Shown: in pieces, positions 1,146 to 45,584 of the stretch
How the letters are laid out: each line of letters starts with the position of its first letter
Position numbering within the stretch: position 1 is the first letter of the stretch
The notes under the pieces: model-generated
Databases searched by the model: none
Told to the model about the DNA's origin: nothing
What the model saw: only the letters and a program-made list of their open reading frames with translations
NCBI RefSeq assembly: GCF_947623445.1
Contig: NC_135240.1
Span: 248,001 to 312,000 of the forward strand
Direction of reading: 5' to 3'
Length of the DNA: 64,000 bases
Source of the DNA: Clavelina lepadiformis
Taxonomy: Eukaryota > Chordata > Ascidiacea > Aplousobranchia > Clavelinidae
Translations under genes and position numbers: made by a program

Positions 1146-1975
1146 CACGCATTACAGACCACAATGAAGTCACAAAGAAGACGCGAAACTTGCAGTTATA
1201 TTGACCGGGGAAGGCTTGATTGGCCACGGTCGCATTATGTGGAACATTTGCACTTTCAAACGGAGAAACTCGTATTTGACTCTTAGGTAATATCGCGCAT
1301 CGCACTGTATTTGAACTCTTACGTAATAACGCGCATCCTGGTACTCGCGCCTCAATCAAGCTCATTGAGGAACGTTTTCTTGACAATACAGCAAGTATGC
1401 ATCATTAACCTTCTAGGCCGCCGATCTTTGTTTCTTCAGTTCTAAACTCACCATGCTATAATTTATAACGATTACGATCAAAGCGTCTTCTCTGTCCCAC
1501 GGACAATTAATATCACGCTTCGTTTCGCTCATTTCTTTTGTATTTGCCAATATTAGGTCAATTTTTTCTAATTTCGTGTAGGGTATTGTCAAATGGGAAC
1601 TGACTATATAACGCATCTCTTTTTGCTGGAAGAGTTGAATTAGGCTGCAGGTTTTGCAGCCTAATTTTTATAGCTAACTTATCTGCATGTAGGTTAATGG
1701 TTTTTTTGTTAAAGTTAGGATAAAATGTTTCTTGTATAATGTTTTTTACATAAATCACAGTGAAATAATCCGTTCTTAGTGTAACGTATCACTTTTTGCA
1801 GGAAGAACAATTACATGTACTGCTGTTTAGTTTGCCAGGCAGCTCAAGCAACACAAGTGGCTTCGACCGAAAGTTTTATCGTTTTTTAACTATTTTCAAG
1901 TTAGCCATAGTCGTTGATCAGATAGAGCTCAAAAACAGTTAACAGTACAGTACAGTACGGTATAATGTTTCCAAA
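1145..1975 (+). repeat. Copy of the 5' region of the Myb/telobox-like gene
   Basis: This stretch matches 26,975-27,650 (right arm of the large inverted repeat) in the same orientation, and the left arm in reverse. The match starts at the cyclin E breakpoint and ends just before exon 1 of the YR gene. In the arms it lies upstream of a gene with a Myb-like domain, so it probably holds that gene's promoter or leader. It is interrupted at about 1,631-1,800 by an unrelated interspersed repeat. No coding function is supported. Confidence 0.6.
1631..1800. repeat. Interspersed repeat of about 165 bp
   Basis: The unit sits between two halves of an otherwise continuous alignment with 27,470-27,500. 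It contains ctaacttatctgcatgtagg and gtgaaataatcc. Similar sequence occurs at 51,375-51,540 and 63,225-63,390. It has no ORF and behaves like a short non-autonomous element. Ends and family are not resolved. Confidence 0.5.
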
Positions 1976-2054
1976 ATCGCTAAAATGTGGCCAAAGAAAA
2001 TGTATAAATTAATTTGTACAGGTGATATCAGTAAACAAAATAACGACATTGAAT

Positions 2055-5000
2055 ATGAATCGAATGACTGACATCGAGATGGCTGACTTTGTGACATCAG
2101 GTATTGTACACTAGCTTGTGTAAATGACTGCGCACTTATGTAACCAGGTACGTGAATTAAATAATTTGCTATTCGTTTCGAGGGGAAGAGAATTTTGCTG
2201 GAAAGAATCGCAAAGAAGAGGAACAAAAGCAGTCTGACCTCCGTTTGAGGAAACATCGTGTTGGTTGCATTTATCGATAAAATAATAAAGACAATGTCAA
2301 TTTTACTGGCAAAAATAAAACTTACCGATTTAATCCTTTCTCTGCAGGAGGAACAAGAAGTTGATAAAAATAAAAAAGAAGAAAATTACGACAGTGACAA
2401 CGTCGTGGGCACGGGGAATGGACATGCGTTGTCGGAAAACGCTACATTGGATTGTTCTGAAGTAAGCTGGCTTTGGATATAAGTCTGCATTTGTAAATTT
2501 TTCATGTTGTTACGACTAATTATTATGAGTAGGCGAAATTTTCTTCCATAGGTTTAAACCTGGCAAATGTTCTTTCAGTGATTTGATGTATATATCTCAG
2601 CGGGTAAAATAACATACCTGTGCCGAACGTAAAGCTGCGTCAGCAAGGTGACCATGGTAGCCAAATAATAATCCTGTTTAGCAAATTGTTACGCTCTGTA
2701 GCCTTTTGTTAACTTTGTGTGGCAATTGGTAACTGGAAAAAGCTAAATGAGTGATTTAGTCTTTTAAGTCACGATATGATGTTGTGATGCTCATCATTGA
2801 TCAAATGTATTGCTGTATATAACGGAGATCCAGGTTCACTAATTACGTAATAATGCCGAGTTCGACAAGACCGATAATTAATTTATCGATATCCTAAAAA
2901 ACGAAATACGTTGACAGATATTTTCTTGTAACTCCTTCAGGGTTTTGGAAGGCGTCTTACGTTATGGAAGGTACTCATCTGGCAAACCGGTTTTGCTAAG
3001 TCCATAGTGATTTAATTCTTTAAGTCTGTGCAACTTGAAACTTATGGAGTTATTTCACCAGCCTAATTCGCGCAATTAATTGACCGATAACGTCTGGTTC
3101 AGTTCGACCTATAAAACGTATGGCGCGCACAGTTACGGCAACAACAAACAGTTGTTGTACATGGGAGTTGTCACATAGGAGCCAATGCTTACGGGCCCGG
3201 GCAAAAATAAAACATTTCCAGTGTGGATAACGATTGATGGAGTTAAGGGTGACCTAAACTATACATCATATTAAATAGTGTTGTGAAACGTGGCTGTTAA
3301 ATTTTTTGATTCTTTTTAGATTTTTATCCTCATTTTTATCCACAATATGCCACAGGTATATAGAAACTTAAACCATCTACATTTAAATGAAATTGAACAA
3401 CAGCAAATTTTCTTTTTATAACAGCAGGGAGGTGATAAAAGTGACCCAGCAACAGAACAAAATGACGGGTTCATGAATACGGATTATGGACAAGCGCAGT
3501 CGGAAAAAACAAAATCAGGATCTTCTAATACTGCATTAAATAAGAAGAAAAAGTGTCCGTAAGTTCTACTATAATTTCGACTAGCTTTTAAGTATGAATA
3601 TAAGATAATTTAAAATGCCTTCAGCTTTTCAATGCTGTTTTTGATTTCTATGTGTAAAAGAAAACAAAAGCCAAACATGTCCGAGAATAATGACATAATG
3701 CTGTTAGTAATTGTTCTAGATACTGTGGTGTCATGAATTTGAACATATCGCGCCACTGCAAAATCGTGCACGACAAAAAAAATAATGGGAAAGGTGATTT
3801 CAAGTGCGAACTTTGCAAAAAGTTCCTGACTTCTTGGAATGGCCTCGTGAGACACCTACGTGGCAAGCTTCACGCTGATCAACCCAAGGCAATGGAAATG
3901 GCTGATTCTATGGACCGCCGCCGGAAAAACGTCCCAATCGTAAGTTTTGGTAAATACACACAGTACGAAATGACTGTGCAGTAGAAACACACTCATGCAA
4001 TGATTAACACAATTCCTCGCTACATTTTACAGCAACAAACTAATTGCATCAACTGGAATAAAGTTTTAAACAACTTCAAAAGCTTTTTAATGGGCCACGA
4101 TGGGGGGGCACACGAAGAACGGGTAGCCCAAGATAAAGTATTACTTTTGCAAAATATAATAAAAGACTGTGATTTCAAAACGTTGGAGTCCATTGACCTG
4201 GACACATATAAAGAGAAACATGTGCAGGTTAGGACGTTATATTAATTTTGATTAGTTACATACAAGATTTTTTGGATATACTACAGGTAGAATCTACTAT
4301 GTAATATATTCATAGAATTTATATCAGCAAAGTAAAAGCTCACTGGAAAGCAAAGGTTTGAAGGTGAACATCAAACCAAAGCGATGAGAATTGGTAGAAA
4401 ATCGTTGAAGGGAGTAGTCGGTACTGTTGAGTGTTGATCCATGCGGAATTTGTGGGAAGAGAGTAGGGAGAAATTCCATTCAATGCAGAAAGTGAAAGTA
4501 CTGTATTGAGTGCATAAGAGAAGTTCAGGTAGGCCTATCAATGGAAGGCTGATGAGTGGAAGGACATGTGAACTTGGGAAGTAATGAGATCGAGCTTGTT
4601 AAGGAGTTTCGTTGTTTAGGGGATATGATAGGGAAAAATTACAGTACTGGCAGGGCAGTGACGGCAAGAATACGCGCTAGTTGGAAAACTTTTAAGGAAT
4701 TGTCTGATACACTCTAGGGCAGACTACTCTATACAAACCTAAAAGAATGGCTGTGTAAAGCATGTGTAAGAAGTGTGATGTGTTACGTAGCTGAATGTTA
4801 GGCGATGAAGAAGGCTGATGTCAGGCGAATGCAGATGACAGAAATGAGGATTATTCGAATGATGTGTGGTAAGACACTACGAGATGGCATTACCAATGAT
4901 GTGATAAGAAGGTGGACATGTGTGGAATATATTGAAGAACATCTAAGAGGACATCGTCTGAGATGGTTGTGGAACGTTGAGCGAATGAATAAGTAGAGCT

Positions 5001-8000
5001 TAATAAGAAGAGTACAACATAAGATGATTGCAGTAAAGGTGAAAACGGGAAAATCAAAGAAAACATGGGAAGAGACGGTGAAGGATGACAAGAGAAGGAA
5101 AGGTTTGAAGATCGAGGATGCCATCGACAGGGGAAAGTGTCGGCGTCGTTGCAGGCAACTGGTCGACCCTGAATTTGTTTCGGGATGAAGACTAGGCCTG
5201 AACAACATTCGAATGGAAGATGATTATGTATATATGCAAAGTCTTAGCAAAAATAGTTGTATTTAAAAATAAACAAAAACCATCTTTCTTTATTTTAGAA
5301 ATTACAAAATGAAAATAAAACTCCTTCGACATTCATATCCCACTCGAATGCCATGACGAGCTTCCTCAGCTTTTCATTACTGAAGAAGCTTCCATTGACC
5401 TTCAACGTGGGGGAAGCCCTTATTAACCTCAAGAATCGAAGGGCATCCTACAGAAAATTTCTAAAAAGTAGGTGATTACAAGCGCTGCCTACATGTAGCC
5501 TTTCCACTCTTGGATGATTTACTCGTGTTGGTATCTAAAAACTAGTTTTGTTATTGCAATTAAAACTTCTGTGTTAAAAAATACGCGTTTGCTAACCACT
5601 CTTTATTACCTAAACTGTTGCGTTTTCTAGGAGGCAAGTTATTAAGGAGACGGATCGCAGAAATGCGTTGGACCCGGCAGAAATGAACAAAGTTATGACA
5701 AATCCACTTTTTCGTAATACTGCGCTGACCATAAAACGTAAATGACAGTTACAGTTGTTTTATATTTTTACATTATTTTAATTCTCGTTGAATGTGTAAC
5801 TCACTATATAAAAAAATGCAGTATGGAGAAGAGACCCCGGAGCCGAGGTGAGAAGAGCCCAAGGGGAAGTCCTCATGGCTTATCTGATAATTGAAAACTC
5901 GCAACGGACAAGTGCGGTGCGCAATATGCTCGTTGAAGGGCTAATGTTTGGCTATCCGACCGAGAAAAAACGATGGATTGTTCGTGTAAGTCACCACATT
6001 TTCCTTTCATGTAGAACTCTATTAAAAAAGGATGTTTTTAATGCAGGTGCGCGGTCACAAAACATTCTCAACATATGGGGATGCAACTATTGTAATGCCA
6101 GAATGGTTGAAGAGAGGGCTGGATAACCTTGTCAGATTCAACGGAGAAGAGTGTAAGATTGTTTTTCCCCATAAGGGAATAAATCTTACAAGTTCCTCTG
6201 CAGCTAAAGCAATACAGCGGGTTTGGAAGTTGGCCGGAGGTCGCGGAAAATTTACAGCAACCTCAAACCGGAAGTATTCGGCCACACAAGTAATTGATCT
6301 TTACTGTAATTAGACCTAGCAATATAAATAACGATAAATCGCTAATAATGAAAATATTCTACAGCAAAATTTCAATAAAAGTCAACCAGTGACGTATTTA
6401 AAATTTAAAATTTCATATTAGGTTAGATCTAAGAGACCGGACCGCCGCCTTTTGGTGGCCAAGCATATGGCGCATAGCTCGAGCACACAAGAGAGATATT
6501 ACGCGAACGACCTACAGAATGAAGAGGCTGAAGAAGCCTATGAAGTCATGAAAGAAATAAGGGTAAGTTGTTCAAATCAACTTAAATGGGATTCCTCGGA
6601 ATAAGTATAAAAGTTTTAACTTTTTTGTGTGCATTACAAGTCTGATTCGCGAATAAATTCTATTCTTGGCAACGAAACAATTTCTTGTCGATGGCAAGTT
6701 TGATGTGAACACACGCTTCCTTCCGGCAAATGGTTGTCAGTAAAAAATTGAATTATATTTTTTAATCGCAGTCGTGCAGTTCGGCTGGTCGCACCGAAAC
6801 AAAAGGCGCATCAGCTCAAAGAAGCCCGTCTGCTGAAAGAATCGCATCAGCTGTGGAGGTTTCATTTATAGAAAAAGGTTTGTCAGATGATAGAAGCCCA
6901 TATTCTGAACGAGTAGAACCAGCTGCTGACGTTTCATCAGAAGAAAGTTTGTCAGCTGAAAGAAGCACCTTTGCTGAAGAAGACGAGTCATTACAAATTC
7001 GCCGAAACAAAGACGGTGGCCAACAAAAGGCGGTCCGGGATAAAATAGTTGAGCCTCGTGTTGTTCTGCAGCAGGTAAATTCTCTGAAAAATCTCTTCAA
7101 ATCAATCGTGGTAATTTTGCATTTTTTGGTTTATAGATCGACATCTCTAATGTGGCAGGTGCTTCGAAGCTGTCGGTAAGTTAAAATTTAATTACGACTT
7201 TACAGTGAAACTATGATTTTATTGATATTATTTCCTGTCACCCCACATGCTTTATGTATCCAATGCGTGCATCAATCAAGAAATTTATAAATTATATATG
7301 TACTAGTCACACATATTTAAATTAAAAACAGAAATTTGCTTGAATTACCAAAATTTATTTAAATGATTTAGGAAAGCCCCAGCACATCTGCATCACCCTC
7401 CAGAAAGAGGAAAAAGAAAAGCAATTCCAGAGATTTTAATGTCGTGGTAAATAGCTTTCTAAGCATTTTAGTATATATCGGGAGATTGGAATACGGGAAG
7501 GTGTTTCCTGATATACTTGACCGATAATGTTTGTATCACTCCACAAACGTTACGTGACCAATGCATATATGACTGAACCATGCGGTTATAAAAAGTATGC
7601 ATACTGTACACACATATTTAATAGCGCAAAAACACTGTACAGTTTTCTTGATATACCAAAGTTCTTTTAATAATATAGGAGAGCCCCGGCTCAGCTACAA
7701 AACCATCTAGAAAGAGGAAAGCTACTTTCGATCGTTATAGTTTCTCGGTAAGTAGTATTTTAACAATTTTCGTTTATTGTATTATATTGCATATAAGTTT
7801 ACATATTTAAAATCTATTTTTACATGTTTTATATAATTCCTCAAGCCGAAGCCAGGGGAAAAGCTCACAATTTTAGGTTTTATTAAGGACTTTTTTTATA
7901 AATTTAACTGCATTTTGATAAATTTAGCCATTAAATCCACATCGATTGTCGAAATTAGAGAAGGAAGAAAAAAAAGTTAATGTTGTGGTAGGTCTTAGTT

Positions 8001-8339
8001 AAGTTTATTTTCCATTTGTAATGAAAACGTAAAAAATGCATGTGCCTTGTATAATTTAATTATGTATACGGTAAACTATTTTCAATGATTTTATTATTAA
8101 TTTCTAAAACTTACTGTTTTTAACAGAAATCTCGGCGACAGTTTTCTGCAGATGAATCGCTTGAAGTTAAACAATTTTTCTCATGGTATATTGGTACGAA
8201 GAAGGGAATAACAACGCAATATGCTAAAACGGCTCTTGCAGATGGAAACCTCCCTAAATGCAAGGAATTTTCCAAAACGCCGAAACAGTTGCAGGACAAA
8301 GTCCGGCAACTGATTCGGCGTTCTTTGAATGATAATTAA
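2055..8339 (+). CDS. Zinc-finger tyrosine-recombinase-like (Crypton-type) protein, 17 exons
   Basis: Predicted 790-residue protein. Exons: 2055-2100, 2183-2259, 2348-2461, 3425-3558, 3720-3939, 4033-4227, 5299-5471, 5631-5737, 5822-5985, 6047-6289, 6422-6562, 6772-7074, 7137-7175, 7372-7446, 7679-7747, 7928-7987, 8127-8339. Every junction has GT/AG and matching phase, and no stop interrupts the frame. Residues 122-175 hold two C2H2-like fingers, the first split by an intron (CPYCGVM...HCKIVH; FKCELC...HLRGKLH). Residues about 356-520 look like a tyrosine recombinase: Arg384 in ENSQRTSAVRNM, Lys415 in HKTFSTYG, Arg485 in TSNRKYSAT, His509 and Tyr517/518 in AHSSSTQERYY. The usual His three before Arg485 is Thr482. 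Residues 540-640 are a Ser/Glu-rich linker; three short exons end in basic RKRK-type motifs; the last exon encodes a helical domain (FSADESLEVKQFF, KTPKQLQDKVRQLI). The family cuts and rejoins DNA through a Tyr-DNA intermediate; whether this copy is mobile or domesticated is unknown. The two most 5' exons are the least certain. Confidence 0.72.
4325..5240 (+). pseudogene. Non-LTR retrotransposon fragment (reverse transcriptase C-terminus)
   Basis: It lies in intron 6 of the YR gene. The plus strand reads a CGICGKRVGRNSIQCRKCK-type segment, then ELVKEFRxLGDMIG, and a tail with RRMQMTEMRIIRMMCGKTLR and HRLRWLWNVERM. This is the typical end of a non-LTR retrotransposon polyprotein. Several stops are present (for example near 4,717 and 4,802), and the 5' end of the element is absent. 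Flanks carry similar 12-13 bp sequences (tatatcagcaaagt and tatatatgcaaagt), consistent with target duplication. Related loci at 50.4 kb and 61.4 kb lack the insert. Confidence 0.75.
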
Positions 8340-8639
8340 TTAAGTGTGTATGTGCAAAATAAATGTGGTATATTTGGACGCCTTATTCTGGGTTAGGGTT
8401 AAGACTTTTTGATGCCTATTGCCACTTGTAATGTATTTTAAAATTGCTTCGTATTTTTTCAAAAATGATGATATACCTGTTGCATGAAAACCACATTACA
8501 ATGTTCAATTTTCTCGGAAGGGTATTTTTCAATCAATTTTGCCGGAAAAGTTAATTGGAATTATTTTCATATTTCGGCCAGTAATGGTTAAACGGAATAA
8601 ATAAACTAGAGAAAAATAAAAAGTTTTAGTTGGTAAGTT

Positions 8640-9172
8640 TTGCGATAGCTGATTAAGGTCACATTAAGGATCTTCTAATACTGGTTTAAATAAGAAGAAA
8701 AAGTGTTCGTAAGTTCTACTATAATTTCGACCACCTTTCAAGTATGAATGGAAGATAATTTAAAATACCTTCAGCTTTTCAATGCTGTTTTTTATTTCTA
8801 TGTGTAAAAAAAACAAAAGCCAAATATGTCCGAGAATGATGACAATCAGTAAGTTATAATTCGCATTGGTACAAATGCGCACGAAGTAACTATTACCAAA
8901 TGTATTTCGCAAAATATACGGGTATGAATGTGCACGAAGTAACATTTACCAAATGTATCTCGCAACAAATACGGGTATCAAACTGCACGAAGCAAAAAGT
9001 TTGTATATTGGTAAAGGTATATTGGTACGAAGAATGGAATAACAACGGATGATGCTAAAACGGCTCTTGCAGATGGGAACCTCCCCAAATGCAAAGAGTA
9101 TTCCAAAACGCCGAAACAGTTGCAGGACAAAGTCCAGCAAATGATTCGGCGTTCTTTGATTGATAATTAAGT
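8640..9172 (+). pseudogene. Internally deleted remnant of the YR gene
   Basis: 8,660-8,850 repeats the end of YR exon 4 and its following intron (ggatcttctaatactgg, aagaagaaaaagtgttcgtaag). 8,850-9,000 is 53-bp minisatellite. 9,016-9,168 is a diverged copy of the end of the last YR exon, including KTPKQLQDKVQQMIRR and a stop. Almost all of the gene between these parts is missing. The first part recurs at 32,585-32,935. It reads as a deletion derivative rather than a gene. Confidence 0.65.
8850..9000 (+). repeat. 53-bp minisatellite, about 3 units
   Basis: Units share accaaatgtatctcgcaa, then an acgggtat-type middle, then a ttgcacgaagtaa core. The same unit occurs at 11,950-12,235, 32,795-32,935 and 36,575-36,845 (inverted), with a single unit near 24,914. 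Confidence 0.8.
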
Positions 9173-10560
9173 GTGGAGGCCCAGTTAAACAATATGTACG
9201 TTTTATCTATGGGCCTTACATGGCTACGAAGTAGCATGTTTGGCTTATGTGTGGGCTTACTGAGGAATGGCCAAATCATTTAATGCAAAAGAAGGGCCAT
9301 ACATGGCTTTTTTCTGTGAAAATGCAACAACATTTTCATTTCACCATATCTACTTTATCGTGATAACAATGGTAGTTTTTTTTGCATTTCATTGTCGTAT
9401 AGTATAGTTCAATATTTCTGTATTATTTTTTTCAAAACCTTTGCCTATCTTTGTGTGCGAAAAATGCTGCAGTTTGTAGTTTTTAAAAGCTGAAATAGAA
9501 GCAAACAGTGTATTATTATTGTTTTAAAAGGCATTGAAAGATATCGTTTATTTCAATTTAAAACGCATACACATTTACGGTTACGAAATTGCTGTTTTGA
9601 TAATAACGTTTAAGTAGTGCATGTTGCAAAACAGGATTCTCTTAGCAGTAGGCGAGATTTTTGTAGTTTTGTTCCTGCAAAGCTCCTTAAGCGCTTGATC
9701 AATGCTTTTAAGGTTTTCCAAGTAACTGGATAATGTGTGTGAGTTTTTCACTGAAATTAGGTTATGCTGGCTGTTGTTAAACATAGCCTGTAGCGGTTAG
9801 GTTAGAGAATGGGTATGCAAAAAGTTGATCCTAGCTATTTTCGGTTTAACTGAAGTTAGATTTAGATTACAAGGTATATTTACTATTTAGGTTCTAAAAT
9901 TTAGGTTACTCTGTTATAACATTTAAGTTAGGTTGACAAGAAACTGTGAAAAATAGCTTTGGTAATAGCTTGAAAAATAGCACTCCAGGTCAAGTAGCCA
10001 AGTCGAAATCAATGGAATCGAATTACGCGGGCCTACTCATATATAGGCTAATAAATACACTGACACAGAAATTTAAACATGGTATTAATATCAAATACCA
10101 CAAAATAACTAATATATGTTTGCTAAATTCATGTTTTTTCAGCCGACAGTCAGATTTGGTCACAATATTATCTCAAAAATCGAGCAAACTTAACCACAAA
10201 ATATGTAAAATATAACCTCTTGACAAGCAGCGTGCTATTATTAAAAATCAAAGCTTGCCTTTGATTGAAAATAATTAATATATTGCTTAACCTTAGTCTA
10301 TTTTAGACACTGTATATTAAGCTGTAAAATAAATTGTGGTATCTACAGTATTATGTGGTGAAGAAATGAAAACATTTACACAAAATTTTATGGCCTAAAA
10401 TCGGTTTTCTGAAAGTTGACGTGCTTGTATTTTACATTCTAAGAAGGGATTATTTCACTGTAATTTTTTACAGTTCATTGATTCATGTGAATTATTGTGA
10501 AAAACATTATACAACAAACATAGTATACCAAAGTTTAGCAAAAACTTTTTTTGTTTTTTG
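9173..10560. other. Stretch without a supported gene
   Basis: AT-rich sequence with scattered short ORFs (for example 9,581-9,784 minus and 9,946-10,215 plus) that have no recognisable domain or splice structure. I see nothing I can annotate here. Confidence 0.5.
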
Positions 10561-10592
10561 TTTTGCTGACCAGCAAGCTCTGGACATTTACA

Positions 10593-11096
10593 ATGCCACC
10601 TCGCGGAGGTTCAAAGTTAAACAATCATATCAATTACCGTATGCGATGCATTCTGCAGGATGGTCGCACTTTCATCGGCACCTTCAAAGCTTTTGATAAA
10701 CACATGAACCTAATTCTTGTTGATTGTGACGAGTTCCGTCGGATTCGACCCAAGAAAGGTTCCACTGACAGAGAGGAGAAAAGGACTCTGGGGCTTGTGC
10801 TTCTACGCGGAGAACATCTGGTGTCGATGTCGGTTGAAGGACCACCTCCATCAGGGAAAGGACTCGGCGTGCCGGGAGGTTCAAGTCGCGGACCAGGCGC
10901 TGGACGAGCTGCTGGTCGCGGTATGGGTGGCCCCGGTGGTCCAACGGCGGGATTACAGGGACCTATGCATGGGGTCGGTGGACCAGCCCCGGGCACAATG
11001 GCACCGCAGCGGGGCGGTTTTGGACCCCCGCCAGGAATGAGGGGCCCGCCCCCTGGTATGGTCCGAGGTGGCTTTGGTCGAGGCTACAACTATTAA
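10593..11096 (+). CDS. SNRPB: SmB/B' core snRNP protein, intronless retrocopy with intact ORF
   Basis: The product is 167 residues. SmB is one subunit of the seven-member Sm ring on spliceosomal U snRNAs in the nucleus. Both Sm motifs are visible: [20 protein letters not shown] with [14 protein letters not shown], and [21 protein letters not shown] Gly/Pro/Arg-rich tail with PPPGM repeats follows and ends GRGYNY. I chose the ATG at 10,593 (MPPRGGSK) because the Sm fold follows directly; an in-frame ATG at 10,551 precedes a pyrimidine-rich stretch that looks non-coding. There are no introns. An AATAAA at 11,410 is followed after 20 nt by 22 A residues, so this looks like a retroposed mRNA. The ORF is intact; whether it is expressed is unknown. 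An inverted copy lies at 37.76-38.21 kb. Confidence 0.85.
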
Positions 11097-11949: not shown

Positions 11950-12240
11950 TAACGTAACCAAATGTATCTCGCAACTTATACGGGTGACAAATTGCACGAA
12001 GTAAAATTTACCAAATGTATCTTGCAGTTTAGCCTATACGGTCATCAAATTGCACGAAGTAAAAATTACCAAAGGTATAACGAAACGTGTAAGGGTAATA
12101 AATTGCACGAAGTAAAAATTAACAAATGTATCTCGCAATTTATACGAGTGAAAAGTTGCACGAAGTAACAATTACCAAATGTATCTCGCAGCGAAAACGG
12201 GTATCAAATTGCACGAAGTAAATATTACCAAAATTGGAGG
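11950..12240 (+). repeat. 53-bp minisatellite, about 5 units
   Basis: Five adjoining units with accaaatgtatctcgcaa at the start and attgcacgaagtaaa at the end, about 53-58 bp each. An ORF (11,962-12,168) runs through them only because the units lack stops in one frame; it shifts frame from unit to unit and is not a gene. Confidence 0.85.
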
Positions 12241-28893: not shown

Positions 28894-30203
28894 TTAAAGG
28901 CGGTCCAGGATAAAATAGTTGAGCCTCGTGTTGTTCTGCAGCAGGTAAATTCTCTGAAAAATCTCTTAAAATCAATCGTGGTAATTTTGCATTTTTTGGT
29001 TTATAGATCGACATCTCTAATGTGGCAGGTGCTTTGAAGCTGCCGGTAAGTTAAAATTTAATTACGACTTTACAGTGAAACTATGATTTTATTGATATTA
29101 TTTCCTGTCACCCCACATGCTTTATGTATCCAATGCGTGCATCAATCAAGAAATTTATAAATTATATATGTACTAGTCACACATATTTAAATTAAAAACA
29201 GAAATTTGCTTGAATTACCAAAATTTATTTTAATGATTTAGGAAAGCCCCAGCACATCTGCATCACCCTCCAGAAAGAGGAAAAAGAAAAGCAATTCCAG
29301 AGATTTTAATGTCGTGGTAAATAGCATTCTAAGCATTTTAGTATATATCGGGAGATTGGAATACGGGAAGGTGTTTCCCGATATACTTGACCGATAATGT
29401 TTGTATCACTCCACAAACGTTACGTGACCAATGCATATATGACTGAACCATGCGGTTATAAAAAGTATGCATACTGTACACACATATTTAATAGCGCAAA
29501 AACACTGTACAGTTTTCTTGATATACCAAAGTTCTTTTAATAATATAGGAGAGCCCCGGCTCAGCTACAAAACCATCTAGAAAGAGGAAAGCTACTTTCG
29601 ATCGTTATAGTTTCTCGGTAAGTAGTATTTTAACAATTTTCGTTTATTGTATTATATTGCATATAAGTTTACATATTTAATATCTATTTTTACATGTTTT
29701 ATATAATTCCTCAAGCCGAAGCCAGGGGAAAAGCTCACAATTTTAGGTTTTATTAAGTACTTTTTTATAAATTTAACTGCTTTTTGATAAATTTCGCCAT
29801 TAAATCCACATCGATTGTCAAAATTAGAGAAGGAAGAAAAAAAAATTAATGTTGTGGTAGGTCTTAGTTAAGTTTATTTTTCATTTGTAATGAAAACGTA
29901 AAAAATGCATGTGCCTTGTATAATTTAATTATGTATACGGTAAACTATTTTCAATGATTTTATTATTAATTTCTAAAACTTACTGTTTTTAACAGAAATC
30001 TCGGCGACAGTTTTCTGCAGATGAATCGCTTGAAGTTAAACAATTTTTCTCATGGTATATTGGTACGAAGAAGGGAATAACAACGCATTATGCTAAAACG
30101 GCTCTTGCAGATGGAAACCTCCCCAAATGCAAGGAATTTTCCAAAACGCCGAAACAGTTGCTGGACAAAGTCCGGCAACTGATTCGGCGTTCTTTGAATG
30201 ATA
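28894..30203 (+). pseudogene. YR gene copy: exons 12 (end) to 17, broken
   Basis: It matches 7,024-8,333. Exons: end of 12 to 28,944; 13 at 29,007-29,045; 14 at 29,242-29,316; 15 at 29,549-29,617; 16 near 29,797-29,856; 17 from 29,996. The acceptor of exon 16 is changed (atttag to atttcg), and exon 17 is cut at 30,203 by a transposon inserted just before its stop codon. The 3' flank resumes at 32,262 and matches 8,340-8,998. The 5' exons are missing because the segment begins at the inverted-repeat edge. Confidence 0.82.
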
Positions 30204-32261
30204 CACAGGCCAACAAAAAAAAATTTTTTTCAAAAGGCATGATATGTTAGATCGATTTAGGCGTATATCAGGGGCGCTGAGTCCGAAAATGCCATTACTT
30301 TTGCTGAATTGGCTTTAGTTTTAGAGATATTGCTTTTTCCTAAATACGTAATGAAAAGTCACAAATGTATGCTAGTGAGTAACGTAGGTTAACAAAAACT
30401 GAAGCCATGTGAAGCAGCTATTTAGTTTTGCCCAAATGTTGAGTTGTCTGGCACAAATTTCTCGCTTGAGAGGTAAATAAGACCTTAGATTAGTTTATAT
30501 CATCTCCCATCAAGCACTAACATAAGCCTTAACATCAACACATAGCATAACATTCTTGATTCGGCAACAAAAATAACGTTTTACCGGGACAGAGAAGAAA
30601 TGTTAATGCAATTTTTCTCTTAAGAAGATAATTTTGTGTACTGTAAAGACATCGAAGGACTTCTTTCATCTACGGGTCTACTTGAGTATAAACCAGAAGA
30701 ATGGAGGTCATTCATTGACAGCTCCAAAAAAGTTTGAAATGTGTGCTACTTCACAACGAAAATAAGTTTGCCTGTGTTCTCATTGGCCACTCATGCGTTT
30801 TAAAGGAACACTACCAAAGTTTAAAGATGGTCCTGAAGAAACTTTCTTATACTGAGCATAACTGGGAGACATGCGTTGATTTGGAAATGTTCAACTTTCT
30901 CTTAGGCAACAAGGCGGCTACACCAAGTATTCCTGCTTTATTTGTTACTGGGATAGTCGGGCCACTGATCAACGCTGGATTAAAAAGGAATGGCCTATAC
31001 GTGAACAGCTTGTGCACGAAGATAAAAACATTGTAAATGAACCTTTGGTCATTTGTGATCGCATCATTTTACCCACATTGCACATCAAACTGGGTTTGAT
31101 GAAACAATTTGTCAAGGCCTTAGATTAGATAAAGATGGAGCTTGTTTTGATCACCTGTGCAAAGTATCTCCTAGTCTTAGTATTGAAACGCTGAAAGCAG
31201 GAATTTTTGATGGGCCACAAATACGAAAATTAATTTAATATTAAGTTTTTCCATCACGTATGACTGAAGTTGAGAAGGCAGCCTGGCACTCTTTCGTTGC
31301 AGTTGTAAAAGGATTTCTTGAAAACACAAAAGCAAGCAACTATGTGGATCTCATAGAAGTAAAGCTTACAAACTTCCAAGCTCTTGGATCAAGGATGAGC
31401 ATAAAAGTTCACTATCTATTCAGTTACTTGGATCGTTTCCCTGAAAACCTTGGAAATATGAGTGAGGAACAAGGTGAAAGGTTTCACCAAGATATCAAAT
31501 TAATAGATGAGGATCTCAAGGTAGATGTGATACTCACATGATGGCAGATTACTGCTGGTGCCTAACGCGAAACTGTCCACAAGCAGACTACAGGTGAAAG
31601 TCGTACAAGAGAACTTTCCTGCAGATAACTTTAAGCTAATTTGAGTAATTAACTAGAGTGCATCTAAGAACTTCACTAATGCACATTCTGAGATGGGTAT
31701 ATTTTTTCGTATAGTGTTTTGAATACTCCGTGGCAAATAAAAAAATTGATTGCTTGTTTATTTCGTCTGTTTTTGCAAACTGTCGTCTTTCTTGTGTTGG
31801 CTTAGGCATATTTGGTTTGTTATTACCAAATTACTGCTATTTATTGTTCACTTCAAGCAAGTTTTAATGTGGTATTGGAAGCTTAGTCTCACACATACAC
31901 ACTGTTAAGAGAATCTGTTGAAAAGACGAATAAATGGGGCATTTTTTGTGTTGAATATACGGAAAAGAATAGACTTATGCAGCACTTCTTCATTTAGCTA
32001 ATCTCATTGTGTCTTTAGCTTTTGCTCATTCTTGTGGTTTTAGTGCAGATAGACTTACAACAACATTTAATATAGGCTGTTCCTTAAGATAAAATGCAAC
32101 CTACGTTCAAAATTAAAAGGTACCAAAAATATCAAAATTTGCTAATATCTTAAAAACTAGAGCCAATTTGCAAAAACTAATGGCATTTTCGAGCTCAGCG
32201 CCCCTGACATACCCTAAAATCGTTCTTACCTTCCATGCCAAAATTTTTTTGTTGGCCAGTG
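30204..32261. mobile_element. DNA transposon with TA target duplication, 2,058 bp
   Basis: Terminal inverted repeats: cacaggccaacaaaaaaa at the left end and, read inward from the right, cactggccaacaaaaaaatt; both continue to ggcatg. It is flanked by TA on both sides, and the uninterrupted sequence (gaatgataattaatt) exists at 8,326-8,340 in YR copy 1, which gives exact ends. It contains decayed transposase-like ORFs. The CACTG start and TA duplication might suggest the CACTA/Mirage/Chapaev group, but I cannot assign it firmly. Confidence 0.85.
30655..31600 (+). pseudogene. Transposon ORF, decayed
   Basis: In order and in changing frames: CKDIEGLLSSTGLLEYKPEE, FIDSSKK, KCVLLHNENKFACVLIGHS, ETCVDLEMFNFLLG, LHIKLGLMKQFVKAL, GIFDGPQIRKL, then EVEKAAWHSFVAVVKGFLEN, SIKVHYLFSYLDRFPENLG, EEQGERFHQD and MADYCWCL. 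This is the C-terminal two thirds of a transposon protein widespread in invertebrates. Stops and frameshifts (for example near 30,735 and 31,034) make it non-functional. The protein family's N-terminal half occurs separately at 12,307-13,090. Confidence 0.72.
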
Positions 32262-32935
32262 TAATTAATTAAGTGTGTATGTGCAAAATAAATGTGGTAT
32301 ATTTGGACGCCTTATTCTGGGTTAGGGTTAAGACTTTTTGATGCCAATTGCCAATTGTAATGTATTTTAAATTTGCTTCGTATTTGTTCAAAAATGATGA
32401 TATTCCTGTTGCATGAAAACCACATCACAATGTTCAATTTTCACGGAAGGGTATTTTTCAATCAATTTTGCCGGAAAATTTAATCGGAATTATTTTCATA
32501 TTTCGGCCAGTAATGGTTAAATGGAATAAATAAACTAGAGAAAAATAAAAAGTTTTAGTTGGTAAGTTTTGCGATAGCTGATTAAGGTCACATTAAGGAT
32601 CTTCTAATACTGGTTTAAATAAGAAGAAAAACTGTTCGTAAGTTCTACTATAATTTCGACCACCTTTCAAGTATGAATGGAAGATAATTTAAAATACCTT
32701 CAGCTTTTCAATGCTGTTTTTGATTTCTATGTGTAAAAAAAACAAAAGCCAAATATGTCCGAGAATAATGACAATCAGTAAGTTATAATTCGCATTGGTA
32801 CAAATGCGCACGAAGTAACTATTACCAAATGTATTTCGCAAAATATACGGGTATGAATGTGCACGAAGTAACATTTACCAAATGTATCTCGCAACAAATA
32901 CGGGTATCAAATTGCACGAAGCAAAAAGCTTGTAG
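32262..32935 (+). repeat. 3' flank of YR copy, with exon-4 remnant and 53-bp minisatellite
   Basis: It matches 8,334-8,998 closely. It includes the short YR exon-4/intron-4 piece (32,585-32,780) and about three minisatellite units (32,795-32,935), then diverges at gcaaaaagcttgtag. Confidence 0.8.
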
Positions 32936-36408: not shown

Positions 36409-36574
36409 ATTTTCTTAGATTTATTTTTACCAAGAAAATTTTTCCGATTCCAATTACTAAAATCTTTACTGCTAGATGGAATATCTAAGCATTACCTTTA
36501 TTATAACGCGCAATGTTTTGTCGCAATGTTAACCTCTAAGTTTAGTTGTCCCAAACACAACCTCCAATTTTGGT

Positions 36575-36845
36575 AATATTTACTTCGTGCAATTTGATAC
36601 CCGTTTTCGCTGCGAGATACATTTGGTAATTGTTACTTCGTGCAACTTTTCACTCGTATAAATTGCGAGATACATTTGTTAATTTTTACTTCGTGCAATT
36701 TATTACCCTTATACGTTTCGTTATACATTTGGTAATTTTTACTTCGTGCAATTTGATGACCGTATAGGCTAAACTGCAAGATACATTTGGTAAATTTTAC
36801 TTCGTGCAATTTGTCACCCGTATAAGTTGCGAGATACATTTGGTT
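36575..36845 (-). repeat. 53-bp minisatellite, about 5 units (inverted copy)
   Basis: Reverse complement of 11,950-12,240 with a few substitutions. Units read ttacttcgtgcaatttg on the plus strand. Confidence 0.85.
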
Positions 36846-37762: not shown

Positions 37763-38206
37763 TTCCTGGCAGGGTCCAAAACCGCCCCGCTGCGGTGCCA
37801 TTGTGCCCGGGGCTGGTCCACCAACCCCATGCATAGGTCCCTGTAATCCCGCCGTTGGACCACCGGGGCCACCCATACCGCGACCAGCAGCTCGTCCAGC
37901 GCCTGGTCCGCGACTTGAACCTCCCGGCACGCCGAGTCCTTTCCCTGATGGAGGCGGTCCTTCAACCGACATCGACACCAGATGTTCTCCGCGTAGAAGC
38001 ACAAGCCCCAGAGTCCTTTTCTCCTCTCTGTCAGTGGAACCTTTCTTGGGTCGAATCCGACGGAACTCGTCACAATCAACAAGAATTAGGTTCATGTGTT
38101 TATCAAAAGCTTTGAAGGTGCCGATGAAAGTGCGACCATCCTGCAGAATGCATCGCATACGGTAATTGATATGATTGTTTAACTTTGAACCTCCGCGAGG
38201 TGGCAT
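37763..38206 (-). pseudogene. SNRPB: SNRPB retrocopy, second copy with C-terminal frameshift
   Basis: Both Sm motifs are identical to those of the copy at 10.6 kb. A one-base loss near 37,775 changes GGFGPPPGM to [12 protein letters not shown], so the protein is 148 residues and lacks the final PPPGM/RG tail. The 5' side is cut about 15 bp upstream of the ATG. The Sm fold itself would be complete. Confidence 0.8.
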
Positions 38207-38226
38207 TGTAAATGTCCAGAGCTTAC

Positions 38227-38763
38227 CATTTTAAATTTTAAATACGTCACTGGTTGACTTTTATATAAATTTTGCTGCAGAATATTTTCATTATTAGCGA
38301 TTTATCGTTATTTATATTGCTAGGTCTAATTACAGTAAAGATCAATTACTTGTGTGGCCGAATACTTCCGGTTTGAGGTTGCTGTAAATTTTCCGCGACC
38401 TCCGGCCAACTTCCAAACCCGCTGTATTGCTTTAGCTGCAGAGGAACTTGTAAGATTTTTTCCCTTATGGGGAAAAACCATCTTACACTCTTCTCCGTTG
38501 AATCTGACAAGGTTATCCAGCCCTTTCTTCAACCATTCTGGCATTACAATAGTTGCATCCCCATATGTTGAGAATGTTTTGTGACCGCGCACCTGCATTA
38601 AAAACATCCTTTTTTAATAGAGTTCTACATGAAAGGAAATTGTGGTGACTTACACGAACAATCCATCGTTTTTTCTCGGTCGGATAGCCAAACATTAGCT
38701 CTTCAACGAGCATATTGCGCACCGCACTTGTCCGTTGCGAGTTTTCAATTATCAGATAAGCCA
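38227..38763 (-). pseudogene. YR gene fragment: exon 9 (part) and exon 10, inverted
   Basis: Reverse complement of 5,877-6,410. It contains the recombinase core: ENSQRTSAVRNM, HKTFSTYG and TSNRKYSAT are all present. At 38,763 exon 9 breaks inside the MAYL codons and MULE sequence begins; at 38,227 it joins the SNRPB segment. Confidence 0.85.
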
Positions 38764-40741
38764 TGGTACTACGACACCTTATCGAAAGACACTTTATCGA
38801 AAGACACTTTATCGAACGACACCTGATCGAAACGACAGCTGATTGAAAGACACTTTATCGAACGACAGTTAATCGAGCCGACAGTTGATCGAACGACACT
38901 TTATCGAAATGACAGCTGATCGAACGACACTTTATCGAACCGACAGTTAATCAAAACGGCAGTTGATCGAACGACACTTTATCGAACCGACAGTTCAAGC
39001 AAGATTTTTGCGAGTTTCTCAAACATTGAAACAATGGGCCATTGTGATGTGCGGTCTTTGTAATGGTGTGCATTAATGATTGTCATGTATATATCATAAA
39101 GTTGACGATCTATATTTTATATTTGTATCATAAAGTGTTCGATTTCGCATGGCGGCCGGCCCGCCCACATATTAATAAGATATCACAAAAATACGCACGA
39201 GAATTACTAAGTACGAGATTGTCTGTACAGTAGACTAGACTAGTCATTATAGATACAAAGAGTAAGGAATTGAAGGCAAAATAGACTTTAGACTTTGACT
39301 CTAGCCGTAACAATAGACTTTGAAATGGCAGCATATAATGCTCTTTCTTCCAGTTTCCCTCGGGCAGAAATTCTCGGCTGTCTTTTCCATTTTGGCCAAT
39401 GTAGCTTCCGGAAAATGCAGGCTCTCTCTCTGCAGCGGTGGTTCAATGAAGATGCAGAGCACGCCCTTCGCATAAAATGCTTCCAGGCACTGGCATTCGT
39501 TCCGCCCGACGACGTTGTACAACGGTTCGAGGACTTCCTGGCCACGTTCAGTGACGACGATGAGCAGCACTTGTCTGAATACATTGACTATTTTGAAACT
39601 ACTTGGATTGGACGATTGTGTCGCAGGAATCGTCGTCAACCTCTATTTCCTATCCGGTGTTGGAGTGTTTTCCACCGGGTTCAAGATGACCTTCCAAGAA
39701 CGAATAATAGCATTGAAGGATGGCACAATGCGTTCAGCAAGCGTGTCTCATCATCCCATCCGACGCTTCGAAGACTCGTCAAAAAAATTAAGCGGGAACA
39801 AGGTTCCAACAAAAGGTTAATTGAGCAATTGAGTGCTGGAATCGATGGCCCACCTCGGAAGAAGCGCTACGACGCTGTCAACCAACGGCTGAAGAGCATA
39901 GTTGAAAATTATGACTCAACAAATATGGACATAAAAAGTTATCTTCGAGCAATTGCACACAACTTGTAATTAAATGAATGCGATTGAAATGTGCACTTCG
40001 TCAGTTGTCGTTCTTTTAACAGTGCATATCGTCAGTTGTTTCAATAAATTGTGGATCTTTTAACCCTATCCTAACCAGGCTCGCGAGTTTACTAAAAAAA
40101 CTAAGTGTGGCCAACCCCGCACACACATTTGCAATCGTTAATTACTAGAAACCTATGCGTCGTAGACTGATGAGATTATTACAGGTTAGTAGAAACATCA
40201 TCTGGCTTCCTGTATACATCATAATTGTAAAACTAAAGAAAGTGAATTTAGTGTAAATTAGGTATTTCTAAAAGTGACACATTTCTATAAATTCTTCTTG
40301 TTACGCCGCGCCCCCGCTGTGAAAAGAGAACGAAAAAGAATAGTTAGTCAAGTTATTGGTGCGTAAATGAGTAATACGTTTCAATGCGGAGAGAGAGAAA
40401 AATTATATAAATATCACAATATCTCAAAAATTACAAAATCCAACTTTATCAAACAAACATGGATGACCCATTGTTTCAATGTTTGAGAAAGACGCAAAAA
40501 TCTTGCTTGAACTGTCGGTTCGATAAAGTGTCGTTCGATCAACTGTCGTTTTGATTAACTGTCGGTTCGATAAAGTGTCGTTTGATCAACTGTCGGTTCG
40601 ATAAAGTGTCGTTCGATCAACTGTCGTTTCGATCAGGTGTCGTTTCGATCAGGTCTCGTTCGATTAAGTGTCTTTCGACAAAGTGTCGTTCGATTAAGTG
40701 TCCTTCGATAAAGTGTCTTTCGATAAGGTGTCGCGTCACGA
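38764..40741. mobile_element. MULE-type DNA transposon with repetitive long terminal inverted repeats
   Basis: The left end (38,771-39,041) and right end (40,461-40,736) are inverted repeats of about 270 bp. They begin cgacaccttatcgaaagaca and contain many short units such as ttatcgaacgacac and cagttgatcgaa, continuing to caaacattgaaacaatgg. The interior encodes part of a MULE transposase. No target-site duplication is visible, because the two flanks come from different loci (YR exon 9 on the left, cyclin E exon C on the right). Confidence 0.85.
39295..39969 (+). pseudogene. MULE transposase, C-terminal part (224 residues)
   Basis: It reads TIDFEMAAYNAL, then the C/H motif GCLFHFGQC, and NNSIEGWHNAFSKR, all features of the MULE/MuDR transposase. 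The Asp of TIDFE corresponds to the second catalytic acidic residue. The N-terminal half, including the first Asp and any zinc finger, is missing (the full-length family is about 500 residues or more), so it cannot act alone. The visible ORF is uninterrupted and stops at 39,969. Confidence 0.82.
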
Positions 40742-42662: not shown

Positions 42663-42704
42663 TCCCAATCGTAAGTTTTATATCGTAATCGTAATCGTAT
42701 TCGA

Positions 42705-45584
42705 AAAACGTCCCAATCGTAAGTTTTGGTAAACACACACAGTACGAAATGACTGTGCAGTAGAAAACACTCATGCAATGATTAACACAATTCCTCGCTA
42801 CATTTTACAGCAACAAACTAACTGCATCAACTGGAATAAAGTTTAAAACAACTTCAAACGCTTTTTAATGGGCCACGATGGGGGGGCACACGAAGAACGG
42901 GTAGCCCAAGATAAAGTATTACTTTTGCAAAATATAATAAAATACTGTGATTTCAAAACGTTGGAGTCCATTGACCTGGACACATATAAAGAGAAACATG
43001 TGCAGGTTAGGACGTTATATTAACTTTGATTAGTTACATACAAGATTTTTTGGATATACTACAGGTAGAATCTACTATGTAATATATTCATAGAATGTAT
43101 ATAAGCAAAGTAAAAGCGCACTGGAAAGCAAAGGTTTGAAGGTGAACATCATTAAAACCAAAGCGATGAGAATTGGTAGAAAATCGTTGAAGGGAGTAGT
43201 CGGTACTGTTGATCCATGCGGAATTTGTGGGAAGAGAGTAGGGAGAAATTCCATTCAATGCAGAAAGTGAAAGTACTGTATTGAGTGCATAAGAGAAGTT
43301 CAGGTAGGCCTATCAATGGAAGGCTGATGAGTGGAAGGACATGTGAACTTGGGAAGTAATGAGATCGAGCTTGTTAAGGAGTTTCGGTATTTAGGGGATA
43401 TGATAGGGAAAAATTACAGTACTGGCAGAGCAGTGACGGCAAGAATACGCGCTAGTTGGAAAACTTTTAAGGAATTGTCTGATACACTCTAGGGCAGACT
43501 ACTCTATACAAACCTAAAAGAAAGGCTGTGTAAAGCATGTGTAAGAAGTGTGATGTGCTACGTAGCTGAATGTTAGGCGATGAAGAAGGCTGATGTCAGG
43601 CGAATGCAGATGACAGAAATGAGGATTATTCGAATGATGTGTGGTAAGACACTACGAGATGGCATTACCAATGATGCGATAAGAAGGTGGACATGTGTTG
43701 AAGATATTGAAGAACATCTAAGAGGACATCGTCTGAGATGGTTGTGGAACGTTGAGCGAATGAATAAGTAGAGCTTAATAAGAAGAGTACAACATAAGAT
43801 GATTGCAGTAAAGGTGAAAACGGGAAGATCAAAGAAAACATGGGAAGAGACGGTGAAGGATGACAAGAGAAGGAAAGGTTTGAAGATCGAGGATGCCATC
43901 GACAGGGGAAAGTGTCGGCGTCGTTGCAGGCAACTGGTCGACTCTGAATTTGTTTCGGGATGAAGACTAGGCCTGAACAACATTCGAATGGAAGATGATT
44001 ATGTATATATGCAAAGTCTTAGCAAAAATAGTTGTATTTAAAAATAAACAAAAACCATCTTTCTTTATTTTAGAAATTACAAAATGAAAATAAAACTCCT
44101 TCGACATTCATATCCCACTCGAATGCCATGACGAGCTTCCTCAGCTTTTCATTACTGAAGAAGCTTCCATTGACCTTCAACGTGGGGGAAGCCCTTATTA
44201 ACCTCAAGAATCGAAGGGCATCCTACAGAAAATTTCTAAAAAGAAGGTGATTACAAGCGCTGCCTACATGTAGCCTTTCCACTCTTGGATGATTTACTCG
44301 TGTTGGTATCTAAAAACTAGTTTTGTTATTGCAATTAAAACTTCTGTGTTAAAAAATACGCGTTTGCTAACCACTCTTTATTACCTAAACTGTTGCGTTT
44401 TCTTGGAGGCAAGTTATTAAGGAGGCGGATCGCAGAAATGCGTTGGACCCGGCAGAAGTGAACAAAGTTATGACAAATCCACTTTTTCGTAATACTGCGC
44501 TAACCATAAAACGTAAATGACAGTTACAGTTGTTTTATATTTTTACATTATTTTAATTCTCGTTGAATGTGTAACTCACTATATAAAAAAATGCAGTATG
44601 GAGAAGAGACCCCGGAGCCGAGGTGAGAAAAGCCCATGGGGAAGTCCTCATGGCTTATTTGATAATTGAAAACTCGCAACGGACAAGTGCGGTGCGCAAT
44701 ATGCTCGTTGAAGAGCTAATGTTTGGCTATCCGACCGAGAAAAAACGATGGATTGTTCGTGTAAGTCACCACATTTTCCTTTCATGTAGAACTCTATTAA
44801 AAAAGGATGTTTTTAATGCAGGTGCGCGGTCACAAAACATTCTCAACATATGGGGATGCAACTATTGTAATGCCAGAATGGTTGAAGAAAGGGCTGGATA
44901 ACCTTGTCAGATTCAACGGAGAAGAGTGTAAGATGGTTTTTCCCCATAAGGGAAAAAATCTTACAAGTTCCTCTGCAGCTAAAGCAATACAGCGTGTTTG
45001 GAAGTTGGCCGGAGGTCGCGGAAAATTTACAGCAACCTCAAACCGGAAGTATTCGGCCACACAAGTAATTGATCTTTACTGTAATTAGACCTAGCAATAT
45101 AAATAACAATAAATCGCTAATAATGAAAATAATCTGCAGCAAAATTTATATAAAAGTCAACCAGTGACGTTTTTAAAATTTAAAATTTCCTATTAGGTTA
45201 GATCTAAGAGACCGGACCGCCGCCTTTTGGTGGCCAAGCATATGGCGCATAGCTCGAGCACACAAGAGAGATATTACGCGAACGACCTACAGAATGTAGA
45301 GGCTGAAGAAGCCTATGAAATCATGAAAGAAATAAGGGTAAGTTGTTCAAATCAACTTAAATGGGATTCCTCGGAATAAGTTTAAAAGTTTTAACTTTTT
45401 TGTGTGCATTACAAGTCTGATTCGCGAATAAATTCTATTCTTGGCAACGAAACAATTTCTTGTCGATGGCAAGTTTGATGTGAACACACGCTTCCTTCCG
45501 GCAAATGGTTGTCAGTAAAAAATTGAATTATATTTTTTAATCGCAGTCGTGCAGTTCGGCTGGTCGCACCGAAACAAAAGGCGC
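42705..45584 (+). pseudogene. YR gene copy: exon 5 (end) to exon 12 (start), with disabling changes
   Basis: Direct copy of 3,926-6,812. Exons: 6 at 42,811-43,005, 7 at 44,074-44,246, 8 at 44,406-44,512, 9 at 44,597-44,760, 10 at 44,822-45,064, 11 at 45,197-45,337. Exon 6 has TTA changed to TAA (VLNN to V-stop-NN), and the exon 8 acceptor is tg instead of ag (ttttcttggagg), so it cannot make the full protein. The recombinase core exons 9-11 stay open, with Glu for Gly in LVEELM. At 45,584 exon 12 joins a cyclin E upstream region. Confidence 0.82.
43100..44015 (+). pseudogene. Non-LTR retrotransposon fragment, second copy
   Basis: It is the counterpart of 4,325-5,240, carried within the duplicated YR intron. 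It has the same RRMQMTEMRIIRMMCGKTLR segment and shared stops; a short deletion near 43,208 (tgttgagtgttgatcc to tgttgatcc) distinguishes it. Confidence 0.75.

Follow-up and report, generated by a model that had tools for sequence, protein, structure and literature searches.

The window analyzed here, a stretch of 64,000 nucleotides at the left end of chromosome 1 of the ascidian Clavelina lepadiformis (contig C1, bases 248001-312000, in a 209 Mb assembly), harbors at positions 2055-8339 of the forward strand a gene predicted to encode a tyrosine recombinase with zinc fingers, one member of a family with copies on several chromosomes. Comparison of these copies gives a pattern that is the reverse of the one usually seen between exons and introns: the exons differ more than the introns and flanks. 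Between subfamilies, silent-site divergence in the mature mRNA exceeds divergence in the introns and the 3' flank by a factor of about 2 to 6, and the protein is conserved.

The initial annotation of the locus described a gene of 17 exons with GT/AG at every intron, matching phases and 790 residues, and exactly this model was recovered when its exons were re-spliced, the copies on contigs C9, C5, C4, and C3 being used for comparison. All features of the gene lie on the plus strand. Upstream, a putative promoter-proximal block (1891-1950) is common to the C5 copy, with 2 differences in 47 aligned bases and 13 gaps. The start codon lies in exon 1 (2055-2100), which is followed by exon 2 as initially drawn (2183-2259), exon 3 (2348-2461), exon 4 (3425-3558) with the first Cys of zinc finger 1, exon 5 (3720-3939) with the remainder of finger 1 and the second finger (zf-met), and exon 6 (4033-4227). 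Intron 6 contains an insertion resembling a long interspersed nuclear element (4334-5225), which we take to be RTE-like; it is present in the C3 copy and absent from the C9, C4, and C5 copies. Exons 7 (5299-5471) and 8 (5631-5737) precede the three exons that hold the catalytic residues, namely exon 9 (5822-5985; box-I Arg 384 at 5905-5907), exon 10 (6047-6289; putative Lys 415 at 6059-6061, Thr 482, which replaces the box-II His, at 6260-6262, and Arg 485 at 6269-6271), and exon 11 (6422-6562; His 509 at 6473-6475 and the nucleophile Tyr 518 at 6500-6502). Exon 12 (6772-7074) is Ser/Glu-rich with tandem repeats, and its interior does not align to C9, C5, or C4 at the DNA level. The gene ends with exons 13 (7137-7175), 14 (7372-7446), 15 (7679-7747), 16 (7928-7987), and 17 (8127-8339), the last encoding the conserved C-terminal 70 residues and the stop, and an AATAAA at 8358-8363 is the likely poly(A) signal.

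Conservation was tested over exons 5-17 (13 exons, so that exons 1-4 lie outside the test), and exon 12 failed to align. The number of exons aligned was 12/13 in C9, 12/13 in C5, 9/13 in C4, and 7/13 in C3. The aligned codons of these four copies contain zero stops, and AG/GT is kept wherever it is visible, apart from two C4 donors, which are lost. Indels within exons come in multiples of three, the exceptions being exon 6 (a deletion of 7 and an insertion of 3 in C9, an insertion of 4 in C4) and exon 7 of C4, where a 1-nt gap breaks the rule. Since exons stay open and splice sites are kept in copies on other chromosomes, the frame is not a product of chance. Exon 1 and the exon-2 acceptor are also seen in the C5 copy. 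Exon 2 is nevertheless the weak point of the predicted gene model. Its acceptor is degraded (GAG): CGAG, with G at -3, is found in the window and two near-identical copies, whereas CTAG, with T at -3, occurs in the 10 other distinct C1 sequences and in C5 (20 loci examined of 42 matches). In C5, exon 2 ends at a consensus donor (AAGAG/GTAGGA); the window lacks that donor, and its weak CGT/gttggt is therefore a poor substitute.

The predicted window protein is a member of the tyrosine recombinase family, and the earlier description of a tyrosine recombinase with zinc fingers agrees with Pfam, PHROG, and an alignment with Escherichia coli XerD. It carries two C2H2 fingers with a zf-met match above the Pfam cut-off. 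The family set used for profile searches comprised five sequences, the window protein included. Phage_integrase (PF00589) matches all five (best E 7.8e-6), the window protein itself lying below the Pfam cut-off (E 1.4e-4 to 1.5e-3); a PHROG integrase family matches four of the five, and NCBIfam XerA weakly matches one of the five (E 0.044). A PDB sequence search with the family proteins gave no match, and the family profile scores XerD alone at only about 1 bit. In the joint alignment, where identity to XerD is 20-22%, Arg384, Arg485, His509, and Tyr518 align with XerD Arg148, Arg247, His270, and Tyr279, in accordance with the Arg/Lys/Arg/His/Tyr order proposed at first; Lys415 falls in the right region, placed by position only within a gapped stretch, and in each of the five family sequences a Thr takes the place of the box-II His. 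The exon 17 product shares 71% identity with that of C5 and 77% with that of C9. The predicted structure of the last exon comprises three helices at a predicted local distance difference test (pLDDT) value of 68, and a search with this pLDDT 68 model gave no fold match for the C-terminal domain at E <= 0.001. The fingers and the C-terminus would bind DNA, and the Tyr would cut and rejoin strands. No relatives of the family were confirmed by tblastn in the viral contigs or prokaryote genomes searched.

A genome search with the recombinase exons gave 187 matches. The positions used are the best-listed ones (weaker interior copies may be missing), and those within 20 kb were joined into clusters. 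The listed family matches are mostly subtelomeric: among them, 16 of the 20 clusters on C2-C9 lie less than 500 kb from a contig end (a length share of 4.5%), and 13 of 18 contig ends carry a cluster. On C1, the 40 positions used fall into 32 clusters, none of them beyond 4.3 Mb, amid repeated large segmental duplications. Recombinase copies at C1:346359, 409034, and 471709 are exactly 62,675 bases apart, and the three-copy pattern recurs about 625.6 kb further on; segmental duplications are thus nested at this left end of the chromosome. The 5' end of the gene is matched at about 90% by several places on C1; a place on C3 (878000-881900) holds this end only (window 1815-2643, 88%), the rest of the gene being absent from the stretch examined. 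The C5 copy (C5:26500-35500) has an intron-2/exon-3 segment tandemly repeated in units of about 240 bases. Homology of the window to this copy begins sharply near 1883-1891, and C9 and C5 share the flank past the poly(A) site; no mobile-element termini were found, empty sites not having been searched for. Insertion into telomeric repeats was considered and rejected, as a TTAGGG-like stretch at 8393 is not clearly above chance (2 such matches in the window versus 0.53 expected, with as many in 9 of 100 shuffles) and does not occur in the C9 and C5 stretches examined past the stop.

Third codon positions of the window differ from those of C9, C5, and C4 at 227/557 (0.41), 217/554 (0.39), and 168/419 (0.40) sites, respectively, whereas introns 5-16 differ at 213/1254, 229/1243, and 189/1039 (0.17-0.18), each intron with data being 15-24% diverged from the window copy. 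First and second positions differ at 0.12-0.20. Under NG86, synonymous divergence (dS) from C9, C4, and C5 is 1.08-1.21 and nonsynonymous divergence (dN) 0.17-0.21 (omega 0.14-0.20), and with C3 the values are 0.15 and 0.06 (omega 0.40). The contrast is also found without the window copy, at 4-fold sites versus introns: 32/114 (28%) versus 37/588 (6%) in C9-C5, 35/112 versus 32/589 in C4-C5, and, for a second C9 copy (C9b), 27/75 versus 24/352 with C4, 31/79 versus 31/346 with C5, and 25/77 versus 31/351 with C9. C9 and C4 are closer to each other (11/117 versus 30/594, P 0.08). Among 22 sequences (231 pairs, 230 of them with enough sites), the excess reaches P <0.01 in every one of the 72 pairs whose introns differ by more than 0.12, and in 5 of the remaining 158; the pairs share ancestry, so that pairwise P values are descriptive only. 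At the sequence level, the pattern is well supported in one assembly.

Several causes of such a contrast were tried and rejected. CpG decay, editing, and drift in third-position GC content (GC3) do not account for it, as all six substitution types are found in window-C9, window-C4, and window-C5, and GC3 is 0.47-0.52 in five copies. An alignment artefact was discarded because the contrast is unchanged when taken straight from blastn without MAFFT. Exon-biased mutation was set aside in view of the chromosome-1 copies, which compared with the window have no significant difference between 4-fold sites and introns; since these copies show no significant excess and no base change dominates, mutation bias is unlikely.

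The excess has edges. Exon 17 has 47/213 differences in C9-C5, and the 3' untranslated region (3'UTR), up to 25 nt past the AATAAA, has 27/83 with 39 gaps, whereas beyond this point the count falls to 6/139 with 4 gaps (the split at 25 nt was chosen after inspecting the alignment). Upstream, window-C5 differences amount to 2/47 at 1891-1950, 11/94 at 1891-2000, and 15/54 at 2001-2054; exon 1 has 9/46, intron 1 12/82, and exon 2 17/77. Because the excess ends at the splice junctions and close to the poly(A) site, with the 3'UTR included, the mature mRNA has a history distinct from that of the introns and flanks.

Divergence is also uneven in time. On a fixed topology of seven copies, third positions are about equal to introns on the tips of the window and of two chromosome-1 copies (L035 and L049), and differ little on the C9 tip (0.041 versus 0.031 in introns) and more on the C4 tip (0.052 versus 0.022). 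The stem of C9+C4 has 0.174 at third positions versus 0.0005 in introns, the C5 branch 0.155 versus 0.033, and the branch between groups 0.527 versus 0.145; within the chromosome-1 group, length is exchanged between two adjoining branches, with 0.038 and 0 at third positions as against 0.001 and 0.030 in introns. Unevenness extends to single exons. Between C9 and C4, exon 7 differs at 14/57 sites versus 10/219 in the other four exons (P 2e-5). Heterogeneity among exons is found in C9-C4 (P 1.6e-5), window-C3 (P 1e-4), and C9-C5 (P 0.001), and is weaker in window-C9 (P 0.04) and window-C5 (P 0.10). The introns are homogeneous over six introns in window-C9 (P 0.97) and window-C5 (P 0.99). The C3 copy is a mosaic in which the second half of exon 11 resembles the C9b version and the introns follow the window group.

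The window copy itself had been proposed as the active master copy of the family, a role that the comparison with its duplicates does not bear out. Over exons 7-11 the window branch carries 7 nonsynonymous and 0 synonymous changes, with 3 intron differences over the same region. A copy at about C1:875-881 kb, some 626 kb away, is identical to it in exons 1-16 (the extent of the comparison). Because of the 7:0 changes, the weakened exon-2 acceptor, and this identical duplicate, the window gene is probably not a master copy. Three chromosome-1 copies (L035, L041, and L049) differ from it by 0.05 at 4-fold sites, 0.05-0.06 in introns, and 0.03-0.04 at first and second positions, rates as in nearly neutral decay. 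L091, a near-full copy of another lineage, has a stop in exon 12, and its exon 17 is absent from the 1.5 kb after the end of homology. The window copy would thus be a recent duplicate whose frame is open through youth rather than selection. The further claim that the other copies in the window are defective agrees with the ones examined, some of the fragments, which are truncated: a paralogue that begins within exon 5 and reaches the beginning of exon 12 (42703-45563, plus strand), open over exons 7-11; an inverted fragment from part of exon 9 to intron 10 (38228-38765, minus strand); and a 3' fragment from the end of exon 12 to exon 17 whose stop codon is lost (28896-30208, plus strand). Another gene piece lies at 55.9-56.5 kb.

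A process acting at the RNA level would best explain the edges, and we favor either the replacement of exons on spliced-RNA templates or an escape from RNA silencing. Copies would have spread mainly as segmental duplications between chromosome ends. Under exon replacement, single exons on recently duplicated scaffolds would then be overwritten by conversion, with spliced transcripts or cDNA of short life as the template. The templates would come from older family lineages, leaving exons with an older history than the surrounding introns. Exon overwriting fits because the bursts are limited to single exons and bring little protein change. The whole account, in which a recombinase family spreads by segmental duplication and has its exons overwritten from spliced-RNA templates, is offered tentatively, its chances being put somewhat short of even. 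Its boldest part, that spliced transcripts of a subtelomeric recombinase family acted as templates in the germ line of an animal and rewrote single exons together with the 3'UTR, while introns and flanks stayed as they were, with a differing genealogy of the mature message as the outcome, is doubtful.

The other RNA-level possibility, which we consider rather unlikely, is an escape from homology-dependent silencing. Small RNAs from inverted or antisense copies would hit the spliced message, and recoded exons and UTRs would escape, so that silent sites outpace neutral ones. This would agree with an excess restricted to the mRNA, 3'UTR included, with a conserved protein, with third-position changes that favor neither one base change nor a shift in GC3, and with the occurrence of inverted gene duplicates both in the window and along the chromosome; in Drosophila, selfish drivers are known to be suppressed by hairpin RNA (PMC10292708). 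It fits the edges and fits the bursts less well, as silent change is concentrated on one branch, the C9+C4 stem, with little on the C9 tip, where aligned exons are open, and one exon holds most of the excess in C9-C4. Strong constraint on introns, promoter, and 3' flank, with silent sites marking old neutral divergence, appears less probable still. Decaying copies do have similar intron and 4-fold rates, as would follow from a release of constraint, intron 3, which is long, is less conserved than the short ones, and two of the four pairs tested show clustering of intron differences. However, constraint would need to extend over a dozen short introns as well as the 3' flank, introns 5-16 are all similarly diverged from the window and homogeneous over six introns in window-C9 and window-C5, the DNA past the poly(A) site is as conserved as the introns, and intron-to-silent ratios vary about 100-fold between branches. 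A comparison of constrained and free intron sites at first gave P 5e-7, but most of this was due to tree shape, and it is counted neither for nor against constraint.

Two further explanations are given very little chance. One is balancing selection on exons combined with homogenization of introns by conversion, as known for the genes of the major histocompatibility complex (MHC). Mosaic patterns occur in both exons and introns here, as it would predict; however, the omega values against C9, C4, and C5 denote low amino-acid change, and therefore protein diversity is not what seems to be kept. Conotoxin introns conserved within a superfamily (PMC3862624) offer it some precedent. The other is the view of the initial annotation, an active Crypton-like transposon with the window gene as its master copy, for which the recombinase domain with its catalytic residues and the many copies speak; against it, no termini or target site were found, the window branch bears no sign of purifying selection, the exon-2 acceptor is degraded, and the Crypton features tested are missing.

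Several observations weigh against the overwriting of exons from spliced-RNA templates. Two degenerate patterns for intronless exon 9/10 or 10/11 junctions found none in the genome, and no intron loss was noticed in the aligned copies, though introns would be expected to be lost now and then if spliced RNA were the template. With 25-50% of third positions different, donor and recipient exons make poor partners for ordinary conversion. Intron 3 departs from the pattern in its first part, where C9-C5 divergence is 10-33% per 100 nt; introns differ in C9-C9b (P 0.002); and in 15-nt blocks intron differences are clustered in window-C9 (P 0.004) and C9-C5 (P 0.006), clustering that is not seen in window-C5 or C4-C5. 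Four copies on other chromosomes (C9, C9b, C4, and C5), compared in pairs that share ancestry and taken from one assembly, carry the strong signal. The sole control, a cyclin copy of the window set against its C8 relative, showed no visible exon excess by eye, and this copy is probably a pseudogene, as its relative may be too.

Silent sites are usually taken as a near-neutral clock, with introns equally or more free to change. Here, this clock is several times faster within the mature message than immediately beyond it, and the change of pace falls at splice sites and close to the poly(A) site. Irrespective of its cause, the pattern makes the family a testable natural case of RNA-templated germ-line change or of a small-RNA silencing arms race at nucleotide level. 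In addition, a catalytically plausible recombinase family is placed close to most of the chromosome ends of a chordate.

Other features of the window and its surroundings were recorded. Pieces of a cyclin gene lie at 46752-47060 and 57767-58075; a 1.6 kb query from here has 47 listed matching segments, of which 46 lie in the first 4 Mb of C1, and the relative at C8:16183461 keeps introns. An LSM-domain gene copy (10539-11093 and 37763-38230) is continuous, whereas its relative at C5:20174492-20176077 is interrupted by about 850 bases, which points to the window copy as a retrocopy that was amplified on C1. At 52903-53772 there is an open C2H2 array of about nine fingers in 84-base repeats. An open reading frame at 39292-39966 has a weak MULE transposase match (E 5e-4, below the cut-off) and is flanked by 15-base tandem arrays in opposite orientation (38771-38995 and 40513-40733). 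A 53-base tandem satellite recurs at 8874-8992, 11957-12232, 32803-32921, and 36569-36844, in some cases adjoining gene fragments. At the edge of the amplified chromosome-1 region (C1:3-134) lies an exon for a DM (doublesex/DMRT) domain (E 3.8e-23).

Among known systems, the CryptonA and CryptonI elements resemble the present family in being eukaryotic tyrosine recombinases in multi-copy families that occur in chordates, as reported in PMC3212892. According to the same source, the Crypton catalytic tetrad is R-H-R-Y and animal Cryptons have no C-terminal domain after the recombinase. Unlike them, the family described here has 17 exons, two C2H2 fingers, a conserved C-terminal exon, a Thr in place of the box-II His, no defined element ends, and listed matches that are mostly subtelomeric; the Crypton-derived DUF3504 family was not among the Pfam matches, for which the E limit was 10 and the program's filters remove most hits above about 0.1. 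The Crypton assignment made at first was thus not borne out by the conserved C-terminal exon, the Thr, and the DUF3504 search, and membership among animal Cryptons is not claimed for these predicted proteins. WOC and ZMYM2-4, host genes derived from Cryptons, are likewise recombinase-derived proteins with zinc fingers, and WOC is reported at telomeres; unlike the present family, where Arg, Arg, His, and Tyr are kept and copies are many, DUF3504 genes lost most catalytic residues and are conserved as single genes (PMC3212892). The Xer recombinases and phage integrases (PF00589; E. coli XerD) share with it the R...R..H........Y residues in the same order and spacing, with a Lys in the equivalent region, and differ in their distance (20-22% identity), in the Thr for the box-II His, and in the C2H2 fingers located upstream here. 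As for the divergence pattern, MHC and snake venom genes combine conserved introns with variable exons, and in these families, as in conotoxins, coding change is mainly amino-acid replacement. In the recombinase family, unlike these, change is mainly silent and includes the 3'UTR. Literature searches for conserved introns with silent exon divergence returned nothing under some terms and, under others, a few papers, among them one on conotoxins (PMC3862624), whose introns are conserved within a superfamily beside variable exons and, as in the family described here, are more similar than exons between paralogues.

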